The notes below the pieces were generated by a model. It saw only the letters and a list, made by a program, of their open reading frames with translations. It made no database searches and was not told the origin of the DNA. A DNA stretch of 64,000 bases from Tsukamurella paurometabola. Its GTDB lineage: Bacteria > Actinomycetota > Actinomycetes > Mycobacteriales > Mycobacteriaceae. The translations under genes and the position numbers were made by a program. The stretch lies in the NCBI RefSeq assembly GCF_900631615.1, contig NZ_LR131273.1:868001-932000 (forward strand). The letters run 5' to 3'. Below are positions 12,573-15,658 of this stretch, in pieces (positions within the stretch are counted from its first letter, which is position 1; every line of letters begins with the position of its first letter).

Positions 12573-12779
12573 TCAGACCAGCGTGTAGCCGGCTTCCTTC
12601 ACGGCTGCCTCCACCGCGTCGCGCGCCAGCTCGGCCTCGCTCGCCACGGTCACGGCGCCGGTCTCGACGTTCACCTCGACGCCGGTCACGCCGCCGAGCT
12701 CCGAGATCTCCTCGCGCACCGACGACGCGCAGTGCCCGCAGGTCATGCCGGTCACGGTGTACGTGGTCTCCACTGCCAT
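12573..12779 (-). CDS. CopZ-like heavy-metal-associated (HMA) chaperone
   Basis: A 68-residue HMA-domain protein, MAVETTYTVTGMTCGHCASSV..., with the metal-binding loop MTCGHC that carries Cu(I). Length fits a stand-alone copper chaperone that buffers copper and passes it to a P-type ATPase; no such ATPase is in the window. The ATG at 12779 follows a GGAG ribosome site; the longer open frame upstream is unrelated. A CsoR-type palindrome lies about 47 bp upstream, which supports copper induction. Confidence 0.9.
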   Translation of the reverse strand: MAVETTYTVTGMTCGHCASSVREEISELGGVTGVEVNVETGAVTVASEAELARDAVEAAVKEAGYTLV

Positions 12780-12825
12780 ATCTCGCTCCTTCACCACTGG
12801 CGCGATCGTCGCGCACCTCGAATGG

Positions 12826-12840
12826 TACCCCCTAGGGGTA
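12826..12840. promoter_or_regulatory. CsoR-type copper operator
   Basis: TACCCCCTAGGGGTA: a perfect inverted repeat TACCCC-CTA-GGGGTA in the divergent gap between the copper chaperone and the Nudix gene. It closely resembles the GC-flanked palindromes bound by the copper sensor CsoR. No csoR gene is in the window, so the regulator would act from elsewhere. Confidence 0.65.
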
Positions 12841-12924
12841 TCGGGCCGCCACCGCGGCCGCACCACCACCGTGCCCCACCTCGCGGCGCGCGTCTCCCCG
12901 CGGATCGGTTCGTACTCTAGAAGC

Positions 12925-13401
12925 ATGCCCATTCCCGAGTACGTGCGCCGCGTCCGCACGAAGATCGGCACCGACCTGCTGTGGCTGCCCGGCGTCGCCG
13001 CGGTGGTCGTCAACGAGACCGGCGAGGTCCTGCTCGGCCGCCGCGCCGACACCGGGGAGTGGGCGTCGATCGCCGGCATCCTCGAACCCGGCGAGCAGCC
13101 CGCCGAGGCCATCGTCCGCGAGATCCGCGAGGAGGCCGGCGTCGAGGCGGAGGTGCTCGACCTGCTGTCGATCCGCACCGACGAGCCCGTCCACTACCCG
13201 AACGGCGATGTCGCGCAGTACCTCACGCTGCTGTTCCTGTGCCGGTACGTCGACGGCGAGGCACACGTCGCCGACGACGAGTCGCTCGAGATCGCCTGGT
13301 TCCGCCCCGAGTCGCTGCCGCCGATGCCGCCGCGGCAGACCGAGCGGATCCGCCGCGGCCTCGCCGCCCTCCGCGGCGACACCCGCCCGGCCTGGCAGTA
13401 G
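12925..13401 (+). CDS. Nudix hydrolase
   Basis: A 158-residue Nudix protein. The box G-x5-E-x7-REIREEAGV is complete (GILEPGE then QPAEAIV then REIREEAGV, about residues 50-72). It cleaves a nucleoside diphosphate linked to another moiety, using the box glutamates to hold divalent metal; the substrate is open. ATG 12925 (MPIPEYVRRVRTKIG) is chosen because it begins the conserved region; the frame upstream overlaps the CopZ promoter and is not coding. Confidence 0.88.
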   Translation: MPIPEYVRRVRTKIGTDLLWLPGVAAVVVNETGEVLLGRRADTGEWASIAGILEPGEQPAEAIVREIREEAGVEAEVLDLLSIRTDEPVHYPNGDVAQYLTLLFLCRYVDGEAHVADDESLEIAWFRPESLPPMPPRQTERIRRGLAALRGDTRPAWQ

Positions 13402-13404
13402 CCG

Positions 13405-13475
13405 TTCCGAAAGTCGAATCGAGCGCGGCGGGACGGCGATACATGCCGCCCCACCTCGCTCGATGGAAGTTTCGG
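13405..13475 (+). repeat. 71-bp palindromic element, left copy
   Basis: An imperfect hairpin: 13407-13425 can pair with 13457-13475, with further pairing inward around a GATACAT loop. It begins with TTCCGAAAGTCGA and ends with GAAGTTTCGG. The reverse complement of 14428-14498 has the same length, the same first 13 bases, a similar core and nearly the same end, so these are two members of one repeat family in inverted orientation around the DUF559-type gene. Confidence 0.7.
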
Positions 13476-13484
13476 GAGCGGCTC

Positions 13485-13524
13485 CGTCCACAGGTGTGCG
13501 TACGAAACCTTTTTCGTCCACAGG
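13485..13524 (+). repeat. Direct repeat CGTCCACAGG x2 before the DUF559-type gene
   Basis: CGTCCACAGG occurs at 13485-13494 and again at 13515-13524, 30 bp apart, between the left palindromic element and the start codon. The word resembles the TTGTCCACA DnaA-box core but lacks its first bases. It may be a promoter-region motif of this gene family; the role is unknown. Confidence 0.4.
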
Positions 13525-13574
13525 CGAGCGGTTTTCCGGCCCGACGCGGCGTCGGCTGCGACGACGATCTGAGC

Positions 13575-14431
13575 GTGAACGAACTGATCGCGGAGGTCGC
13601 CGCGCAGAACGGCGGTGTCGTCGGCCGCCGCCACCTGGTCGGGCTCGGCGTCGATCCGGCCGACGTCGCCGAGCTCGTGCGGGCCCGTGTCCTGATCCCG
13701 ATCCGGCGCGGTTGGTACGCGACCGCGACCGCGAGCCCGGAGGTCGTCACGGCGGTCGAGGCCGGGGCGACACTGACCTGCCTCTCGGCGCTGGCTCGCA
13801 CACCCGGGATCTGGATACCACCGGTCGCCAAGCGCACCCACGTGCGGTGGCCGGCGCACCGCCGCACGCCGCTCAGAACACAGAAGGGGTGCCGCGGCCA
13901 GTCTCGCTGGGGACCTCGTTGCGGGCTGTCGATCCGCTGCACCTCGCTCTGCAGTGCGCCGTCAACTGCATCGACGAGGACTACGTCGTGGCCGTCCTGG
14001 ATTCGCTTCTCCGATCGCCCGACCCGCACACCGTGCAGGAGGTGCGCGACGTCTTCGAGGGTGCACCGTTGCGGATCCAGCGGCTGCTCGGCGATCTGGA
14101 TCCGGCCGCGCAGTCGGGCACCGAGTCCGTGACGCGCCATCGACTCCGGTCGGCGAACATCCGCGTGCGCAGCCAAGTGACGATTCCCACGGTGGGACGA
14201 GTGGATCTGCTCGTCGGCGACCGGCTGATCATCGAGTGCGACAGCAGGGGATTCCACGACGACGCACACCAGCGCAGAGAGGACGCGCGGCGCGACCGGA
14301 AGTCGACCGTCGGCGGCTACCACGTTCTGCGTATCGACTACGCCGACGTCATGTTCGGCTGGGACAGCGTGTTCGCCGACATCACCGACATGGCGTGCTC
14401 CCGGCGACACCTCGGAGCGGTCCGGATCTGA
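13575..14431 (+). pseudogene. DUF559-type nuclease-like protein with AbiEi-like N-domain, frameshifted
   Basis: The gene reads in two frames. From GTG 13575 the first encodes a winged-helix-like N-domain (NELIAEVAAQNGGVVGRRHL, LIPIRRGWYAT, LTCLSALA), as in AbiEi-like or DUF559 proteins. Near 13870-13900 (a GGGG at 13886-13889) the coding signal moves to the minus-one frame and gives LGTSLRAVDPLHLALQCA and then a Vsr/DUF559 endonuclease-like core: VGRVDLLVGDRLIIECDSRGFH, EDARRDRKS, GYHVLRIDY. Those acidic residues suit a PD-(D/E)xK nuclease. A single missing base would restore one protein of about 285 residues. Either a real mutation or a sequencing error is possible. It is bracketed by inverted palindromic elements. 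Confidence 0.72.
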
Positions 14432-14498
14432 AACTCCACTCCATCGGGGCGGGGCGAAGAATATCGTCGCCCCGGCCCGATGGAGTCGACTTTCGGAA
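14428..14498 (-). repeat. 71-bp palindromic element, right copy (inverted)
   Basis: The hairpin arms are 14428-14448 and 14476-14496 around an AAGAATATCG-like loop. Read on the minus strand it aligns end to end with the copy at 13405-13475. It overlaps the stop codon of the DUF559-type gene, so it may also act as its terminator. Confidence 0.7.
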
Positions 14499-14558: not shown

Positions 14559-15056
14559 TCAGTTCCCGGGCCGCGCCGCCAGCAGCGGTTCCAGAGCCGC
14601 GCGCAGGGCGTAATCGTTGCGGGCCCAGGCCTGGACGACGGAGCCGTCGGTGAGCTGGATCCCCATGCCGTACCGGCGCCGCGGCACGGTGCGCAGCCGC
14701 CCCATGGCGCGGGCTGTGGACCAGGCCGGGAAGTCCTCGGGCTTCGCCTTACGGGGATGATCGGGCGCCTTCCCGGGGAGGATCCGGGCGATCTCGGCGA
14801 CGGGGATCGTCTCCTCGCCGCAGCGCAGCTCCTCGGGCGTGATCGCCATCGAGACGTGAGTGCGGCCGGCCGTGACCTGCAGCCACACGAAGGCCTGGGT
14901 GGCGAGACCCAGCAGCAGCCAGATCCACCACTCGGAGGTGCGGCCGGCCAGCAGCCATTGCGTGAGGATCATCCCCACCGTCGCCACGGGCACGATCAGC
15001 AGCCACACGCGCGAGAGCCCCCGCTCGGCGTAGAGCGGTGCCGCGGACCCGCTCAC
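14559..15056 (-). CDS. DUF3093-family membrane protein
   Basis: A 165-residue protein with two membrane helices near the N-terminus (LSRVWLLIVPVATVGMILTQ and WWIWLLLGLATQAFVWLQV) and a soluble C-terminal part with MAITPEELRCGEETIPVAEIARI and VVQAWARNDYALRAALEPLL, the pattern I associate with DUF3093. Function unknown. The GTG start at 15056 overlaps the stop of the preceding gene (GTGA), which decides it against longer versions. It is the last gene of the haem operon. Confidence 0.72.
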   Translation of the reverse strand: MSGSAAPLYAERGLSRVWLLIVPVATVGMILTQWLLAGRTSEWWIWLLLGLATQAFVWLQVTAGRTHVSMAITPEELRCGEETIPVAEIARILPGKAPDHPRKAKPEDFPAWSTARAMGRLRTVPRRRYGMGIQLTDGSVVQAWARNDYALRAALEPLLAARPGN

Positions 15057-15658
15057 CGGCGAGCCGCCGTCACGCCCGGATTGCAGTACTCGAGCGATTC
15101 GCGGCTGTTCGCGCAGATGATCGCCCCCACCACCGCGATCGCCGCGAGGATCGCCGGGATCGCGACTGTGGCGTTGTGCGAGAAGAAGGCCATCACGCCC
15201 TGCACGAGGACGAACGCGGCGACGAACTGCAGCGCGAGCCGCGCCCAGTTCTGCCCGCGCCACAGGAAGTACACGAGGACCGCGGCCACAGCGACGCCGA
15301 CGACGACCGTGACGATCGCGAGAACGAAGGTCGCGGTGTCGTACTGCTCGAAGGTCTTGTACTGCTCGCGTGAGGTCCGCGCGAGGAAGCCGTCGCCCTC
15401 ACGCATGGCATCGAACTGCTCTCGCAGCTCCTTCGAGCCGCGCGTCGAGATCGCCTGCGCGACGCGGGAGATCGCCGCCGCGAGGATCACGAAGATCCAC
15501 AGCTGCACGGAGAGTTTCACATCGTCGGGCCGGGGCCCGCGCTCGGGCTTGGGCACGGGCGGCGGCGCGGGCCAGGTGGGCGGCTGCGGGCCGGGACCGG
15601 GCCAGACGGGGCCCTGGTGGTGGAATCCTCCGCTCACCAGGTTCCCCTGTTCAGCCAT
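15053..15658 (-). CDS. Proline-rich membrane protein of the hem operon (Rv0513-like position)
   Basis: A 201-residue protein: a cytoplasmic Pro/Gly-rich head (about 45 residues), a membrane segment ([20 protein letters not shown]), a polar stretch with charged residues, then three further hydrophobic segments. No catalytic motif is visible. It starts 25 bp inside the end of hemB, so it is translated with the haem operon; a membrane protein occupies the same place after hemB in mycobacteria. Role unknown. Confidence 0.72.

Follow-up and report, generated by a model that had tools for sequence, protein, structure and literature searches.

A palindrome-bracketed DUF559-type nuclease gene in Tsukamurella, the probable relic of a REP/RAYT-like unit

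The window analysed, a stretch of 64,000 nucleotides (G000:C1:868001-932000) inside a complete 4.70 Mb Tsukamurella genome, contains a nuclease-like gene set between two imperfect palindromes (Table 1). The gene on the left is presumably of the Nudix type and that on the right presumably PH-like, and a gap of 3 nt separates the stop of the left gene (13401) from the left palindrome. When folded as 71-mers, the left and right elements were predicted to reach -38.9 and -50.8 kcal/mol, respectively, which bears out the two palindromes described here in an initial annotation made from the sequence of the window. Three further details of that description were also confirmed: both elements begin with the same 13 bases, TTCCGAAAGTCGA; the right element starts inside the stop codon of the nuclease gene, overlapping the stop that ends at 14431; and the left flank carries a direct repeat, CGTCCACAGG, whose two copies are 88% alike and lie 30 nt apart. 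Covariance-model scores of 80.4 bits (left) and 88.6 bits (right) were obtained with a model built in part from both copies. The opposite orientation that had been claimed for the pair held for this locus only mildly, as the inverted match amounts to 73% over 70 nt and global alignment gave 56/69 inverted against 51/68 direct, a difference that favours the inverted orientation mildly at most because both elements are palindromic. The similarity of the pair exceeded that of all 56 mismatched pairs tried for the locus. Four occurrences of the 13-mer TTCCGAAAGTCGA were counted in the 4.7 Mb genome, two of them at the window locus, compared with none of the same pattern read backwards. An Rfam scan of 2.3 kb returned five matches up to E 1, all far under their gathering scores, the best of which (E 0.062) was to a microRNA family, and a known structured RNA was therefore discarded as the identity of the hairpins.

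Table 1. Features of the palindrome-bracketed locus, in positions of the window.
Feature	Position	Strand	Evidence
Left neighbour gene	12745..13401	+	Listed ORF; conserved neighbour in related genomes
Left imperfect palindrome (L)	13405..13477	+	Fold; covariance-model match; inverted repeat; 13 end bases common with R
First CGTCCACAGG copy, upstream motif containing TCCACAG	13485..13500	+	Repeat search
Second CGTCCACAGG copy, upstream motif	13515..13530	+	Repeat search
Nuclease gene	13575..14431	+	Pfam; two-frame tblastn; intact homologues; GTG start at 13575 read from sequence
Right imperfect palindrome (R)	14426..14498	-	Fold; covariance-model match; overlaps nuclease stop codon
Right neighbour gene, convergent	14559..15062	-	Listed ORF; synteny anchor in 15/16 genus genomes

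The nuclease gene combines an AbiEi-like N-terminus with a DUF559/MTES_1575 C-terminus of the Vsr-type PD-(D/E)xK class. Its match to PF04480 (22.3 bits, cut-off 20.6) upholds the earlier designation as a DUF559-type nuclease gene, while that to PF18741 (27.7 bits) falls under the cut-off of 38.2 and the AbiEi_4 and AbiEi matches at the N-terminus of homologues are weak. What had escaped the initial annotation is that the gene is frameshifted. In a tblastn comparison an intact homologue matched 13587-13901 in frame 3 and then 13919-14428 in frame 2, and as the reading frame is broken between about 13901 and 13919, the unit in the window is, as sequenced, a relic or pseudogene. In the sister G004 the orthologue (L046) also reads in two frames with the break at a different point, and the two frameshifts apparently represent separate decays. 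Six residues (E184, D211, E221, D223, H228 and D236) were invariant over 69 homologues, of which E184, D211, E221 and D236 would form the acidic catalytic-type set of a PD-(D/E)xK nuclease. An AlphaFold model of one homologue was obtained with a mean pLDDT of 96 and a pTM of 0.91. Sequence-profile matches were seen to PDB entries 3hrl (E 5.5e-7) and 3r3p, a 'Mobile intron protein' (E 9.2e-5). Of three homologues scanned with PADLOC, two gave HEase matches (L203, E 3.5e-7; L250, E 0.0036) and one gave none (L189), and NCBIfam returned zero models at E<=0.01 for three homologues. The Pfam matches of the window gene and five homologues included no transposase or recombinase family, PF01797 (HUH/Y1 transposase) among those absent; their other matches, weak and under the cut-offs, were to DUF2726, TY-Chap3 and Tis1_ImmP. 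Some DUF559/AbiEi homologues are currently annotated as type IV toxin-antitoxin antitoxins. Homologues were also present on three plasmid records, all from Tsukamurella tyrosinosolvens (NZ_LR134468.1, NZ_LR134454.1 and NZ_LR134466.1), and on one phage record, an unannotated faecal phage with 28% identity.

A search of 16 genomes of the genus with the window protein gave matches in 15, most of which start near residue 110 because about 100 residues at the start of the query are out of frame. At many of these loci palindromes of ~60-85 nt were found upstream of the nuclease gene and at its stop codon, and their sequence differs from locus to locus. A scan of named genomes yielded 184 relatives, and the best 80 of these, which span many actinobacterial genera and in which nearer relatives are over-represented as a result of that selection, showed the same palindrome-gene-palindrome layout at many loci. 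Three of the 45 genus loci (L106, L115 and L124), 20 Tsukamurella or BOG_194 loci of the best-80 set that duplicated genus loci, and, for short flanks, 4 of the remaining 102 loci were left out, and 98 units (42 from Tsukamurella and 56 others) were scored. A palindrome score of >=14 on both sides was reached by 3 of the 42 Tsukamurella units and 18 others, with controls reaching the same score in 1/22 and 10/104 cases downstream and in 24/168 and 53/240 cases upstream. As many copies are degenerate, this score is a weak detector, and the similarity between left and right sides was adopted instead, a repeat being called when the regions upstream and downstream of a gene aligned with a score of >=25. 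For comparison, each Tsukamurella unit was set against 56 mismatched pairs and each other unit against 97.

By this measure the flanking of DUF559 genes by such elements, which the initial annotation had suggested looking for beyond the window, was found in related and distant genomes alike. The left/right repeat was called at 61 of 98 nuclease genes, with 37 below the threshold, compared with 1 of 101 neighbouring long ORFs, so that the bracketing goes with the nuclease gene family. In 59 of the 98 units the own pair scored above all the mismatched pairs tried. Where found, the repeat had a median length of 69 nt, its left copy ending 97 nt short of the gene start and its right copy beginning 12 nt short of the stop-codon end, both as medians (54 of the 61 right repeats start within -75..+15 of that end). 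Of the 57 first-ranked, untied pairs, 33 aligned better as direct and 24 better as inverted repeats, and a strictly inverted arrangement was therefore rejected as a rule, the orientation claimed for the window being mixed elsewhere. Strong co-evolution of protein and palindrome was also considered; when units were compared with one another, similarity of palindromes and similarity of proteins were only weakly correlated (Spearman 0.15, with 14 of 1000 permutations as high).

The motif contained in the CGTCCACAGG repeat of the window was likewise counted across homologues, as TCCACAG or CTGTGGA within 200 nt 5' of the gene. It was present at 69 of 99 nuclease genes (33/42 in Tsukamurella and 36/57 in other units) versus 3 of 111 other ORFs (1/16 and 2/95), and occurred two or more times in 20 Tsukamurella and 9 other units (29/99). 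The motif might be an operator or a DnaA-box-like site.

Window-type palindromes were searched for in eight genomes with a covariance model built from five copies, 150 first-look candidates being scored per genome. Counted over the two strands, matches with E<=10 numbered at least 26 in the window genome (G000), at least 29 in G004, at least 23 in G005, at least 9 in G003, at least 7 in G012, at least 3 in G016 and at least 2 in each of G001 and G020; among the candidates scored, no strong match was seen in G016, G001 or G020. Together with the four occurrences of TTCCGAAAGTCGA, these matches answer in the affirmative the question, raised by the initial annotation, of whether more copies of the element are present genome-wide. 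Several window-type copies occupy the same sites in G000, G004 and G005 when flanks are compared by eye, and the copies are therefore old. Given these shared sites, recent jumping in the window genome is unsupported, and recent movement there looks rare.

The relation between dispersed copies and the resident nuclease was addressed by a cognate test, in which a single query made of 12 nuclease-flanking palindromes was run against 10 genomes. Every match listed fell on the segment derived from that genome's own palindrome, the dispersed families thus being specific to their genomes. Dispersed cognate copies were shown, among the matches listed, by seven of the nine non-window genomes. Listed copies away from the nuclease numbered at least 34 in an Agrococcus MAG, at least 17 in Brachybacterium phenoliresistens (which has two further copies just beyond its nuclease), at least 10 in Zimmermannella alba, at least 8 in a Propionibacteriaceae MAG, at least 7 in Gordonia, and at least 5 each in Enemella and B. 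squillarum. Among the matches listed, none lay beyond the flanking palindromes in Herbiconiux (4 matches in all) or in Jongsikchunia (4 of 13 listed), and the window genome had 3 of its 10 matches listed, all of them flanking palindromes that formed part of the query. When 20 dispersed copies were examined (all 10 listed for Zimmermannella, the 5 listed for Enemella and 5 of the at least 34 from Agrococcus), none had a nuclease match within 1.5 kb by tblastn with five nucleases, and 6 possibly lay inside an ORF according to crude ORF calling.

Sites were compared across 16 genus genomes, with one genome per species, and the gene names used for them (5-FTHF cyclo-ligase, AAA-ATPase, Nudix and GMC-type) are those that the genes presumably bear. 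Judging by sequence, the four sites examined appear to be situated where convergent genes end. The 5-FTHF-ligase site, matched in 15 of the 16 genomes, was found in three states: empty, with one palindrome, and with palindrome-nuclease-palindrome. A nuclease was present in eight genomes, in five of them in one orientation and in three in the opposite orientation with different palindromes. One complete palindrome without nuclease was present in G004, G010 and G015, at the place where G005 carries the full palindrome-nuclease-palindrome arrangement, its two palindromes forming a direct repeat (direct 72, inverted 48). The palindrome was absent from the site in G011, and G001, G006 and G007 had neither a nuclease nor, by eye, such a palindrome. 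The AAA-ATPase site, matched in all 16 genomes, held a nuclease in seven and was empty in seven; G010 has the palindromes with the gene between them mostly deleted (by eye), and G008 was unscored, its left gene not being found. Sites without the element, the existence of which in sister strains had been raised by the initial annotation, are therefore found in sister species. No palindrome was present in the seven empty genomes, where 3, 9, 12, 15, 18, 44 and 59 bp (stop codon included) separate the protein matches, and reading of the junctions at this site by eye revealed no clear target-site duplication beyond the palindromes.

At the Nudix site, matched in 15 of the 16 genomes, the nuclease adjoins the anchor gene in five, inverted in one (G012). 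A GMC-type gene adjoins the right-hand anchor in six species (L167, L168, L170 and L174-L176), and in G004 the nuclease lies beyond this GMC-type gene. Half-palindrome remnants were seen by eye in G015 and G008 and were absent from G009 and G007. A fourth site (L340-L352), matched in 13 of the 16 genomes, is occupied by a single palindrome, which is of a TTCCGAAAGTCGA-like type in G000, of a TTCCGAACGTCGG-like type in G002, G010 and G013, of the TCACGAATTCGAG type in G001, G003, G004 and G014, of another type in G008 and truncated in G015; G007 has an unlike 45-nt hairpin, and the palindrome is absent from G009 and G012. Between the sisters G000 and G004 the type differs at this site with its position unchanged.

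A nuclease tree of 46 rows, with groups named by site before tree building, and a three-gene species tree were constructed. In the 46-row tree nucleases that share a site often fall together as a clade, indicating much vertical inheritance. Constraint to one clade was rejected for the nucleases of the 5-FTHF site (p 8e-5) and of the AAA site (p 0.001) and was not rejected for those of the Nudix site (p 0.10). The 5-FTHF and AAA sites have each been occupied repeatedly, by unrelated members.

The window probably holds the relic of a palindrome-nuclease unit belonging to a REP/RAYT-like system, one built on a PD-(D/E)xK nuclease and not on a HUH transposase. The initial annotation had likened the locus to a REP/RAYT pair with a nuclease of the Vsr/PD-(D/E)xK type, a comparison that is supported here, and we infer that the nuclease moves the palindromes. 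In such a system the nuclease would recognise its own palindrome, either as duplex or as extruded cruciform, and would cut or nick the DNA there, whereupon break repair would carry a copy of the palindrome, or of the complete unit, to a different intergenic site. The presence of a second palindrome next to the gene would reflect either duplication of the target or copying of that palindrome along with the unit, and recombination of the pair would leave a single one. Sites with one palindrome may be either targets that have yet to receive a unit or what is left once two copies have recombined. A tentative further reading is structure-guided homing, in which the nuclease would recognise hairpins or cruciforms where convergent genes end, a break-and-copy mode by which short palindromes would spread across Actinobacteria with no transposase. 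A resident hairpin might then be replaced by the nuclease's own palindrome, as the different palindrome types at one site in sister species suggest, or might take up the complete unit, the palindrome being duplicated in the process, as suggested by the single palindrome of G004, G010 and G015 where G005 has a full unit.

It was also considered that the palindromes may be MITE-like or recombination-driven elements moved by another enzyme, with the nuclease as cargo between two copies. This explanation is unlikely, given that a similar repeat was found at only 1 of 101 neighbouring ORFs and that the dispersed family was, in all matches listed, the one beside the genome's own nuclease; it would nevertheless accommodate the palindromes that exist without a nuclease and the differing types at one site in close species, and the link between enzyme and movement is one that we infer. 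At the AAA-ATPase site five species have the same genes 3-18 bp apart without a palindrome, which speaks against the palindromes being host terminators, bidirectional and placed at convergent gene ends. Terminators also leave unexplained why left and right palindromes are alike while their sequence changes from locus to locus, and why families are genome-specific. An origin of this kind, or as autoregulatory sites of the AbiEi-like domain, is thus quite improbable, even though the four Tsukamurella sites appear from sequence to be convergent gene ends, the right palindrome overlaps the stop codon, and the separate TCCACAG motif, found upstream in 69 of 99 units, may serve as an operator. The idea that an ordinary solitary nuclease lies by chance between two terminators, for which the modest identity of the window pair taken alone (73% inverted) might be cited, can hardly be credited and is refuted by the recurrence of the bracket arrangement across the genus and in distant genomes.

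REP/RAYT is the classic example of a single enzyme linked to a palindrome family found throughout the genome. In passages of Nunvar et al. 2010 (PMC2817692), a RAYT is an IS200/IS605-related enzyme (Pfam01797) flanked by inverted REPs and accompanied by abundant cognate REPs; RAYTs under these criteria are confined to gammaproteobacteria, the flanking REPs are always inverted, and REP copy number is >100. A REP length of 20-40 bp is given in PMC3733652. Set beside these passages, the present units are alike in that a single gene is bracketed by two cognate imperfect palindromes and in that the same palindromes are dispersed in the genome, the family being specific to the genome's own enzyme. 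They differ in the enzyme (DUF559/Vsr-type instead of IS200/IS605-type, Pfam01797), in their hosts (Actinobacteria instead of gammaproteobacteria under the criteria of PMC2817692), in palindrome length (~70 bp instead of 20-40 bp), in flanking orientation (mixed instead of always inverted) and in listed copies, the highest count of which (at least 34) is lower than the >100 of REPs. As the organisation is the same in kind and enzyme, phylum, repeat length and orientation differ, the system is not a member of REP/RAYT but would work like one.

Vsr-like homing endonucleases of mobile introns (3r3p) are by profile of the same nuclease family (E 9.2e-5), but here the gene is free-standing, intergenic and bracketed by palindromes, and no intron or intein was noticed. 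IS200/IS605 elements and MITEs have hairpin ends and non-autonomous copies, as do the present units, in which, however, no transposase or recombinase family was found among the Pfam matches of the window gene and five homologues. The weak AbiEi_4 and AbiEi N-terminal matches recall AbiE toxin-antitoxin systems, from which the present proteins differ in the fusion of the AbiEi-like domain to a nuclease. The same nuclease domain families are found in MTES_1575 Vsr-REase proteins, described in passages of PMC3710099 as multidomain HEPN fusions, and in Caulobacter VsrA with DUF559, described in passages of PMC12907096 as a methylation-linked Vsr-like protein; those passages of PMC3710099 do not mention palindromes of this kind, and 'palindrom' is absent from the main text of PMC12907096.

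No description of a palindrome-bracketed DUF559 system was found in a literature search that mostly left out subscription papers and left out preprints. The bracketed nuclease with its scattered hairpins would appear to be a hitherto undescribed type of mobile DNA, with an enzyme unlike those of known hairpin-spreading systems. If this is true, it would represent a second solution, unrelated to the first, from a different phylum and with a hydrolytic nuclease, implying that such systems arise repeatedly. A class of orphan DUF559/AbiEi genes would also gain a function, the intergenic palindrome families of Actinobacteria would be explained, and a small single-gene system would become available for testing the copying of short DNA into gene ends. 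As a separate observation, the strongest MTES_1575 domain of the window genome (G000:C1:119757-120038; L010, L125), at 91.9 bits, sits in a 1410-aa open frame, unlike the small bracketed nucleases.
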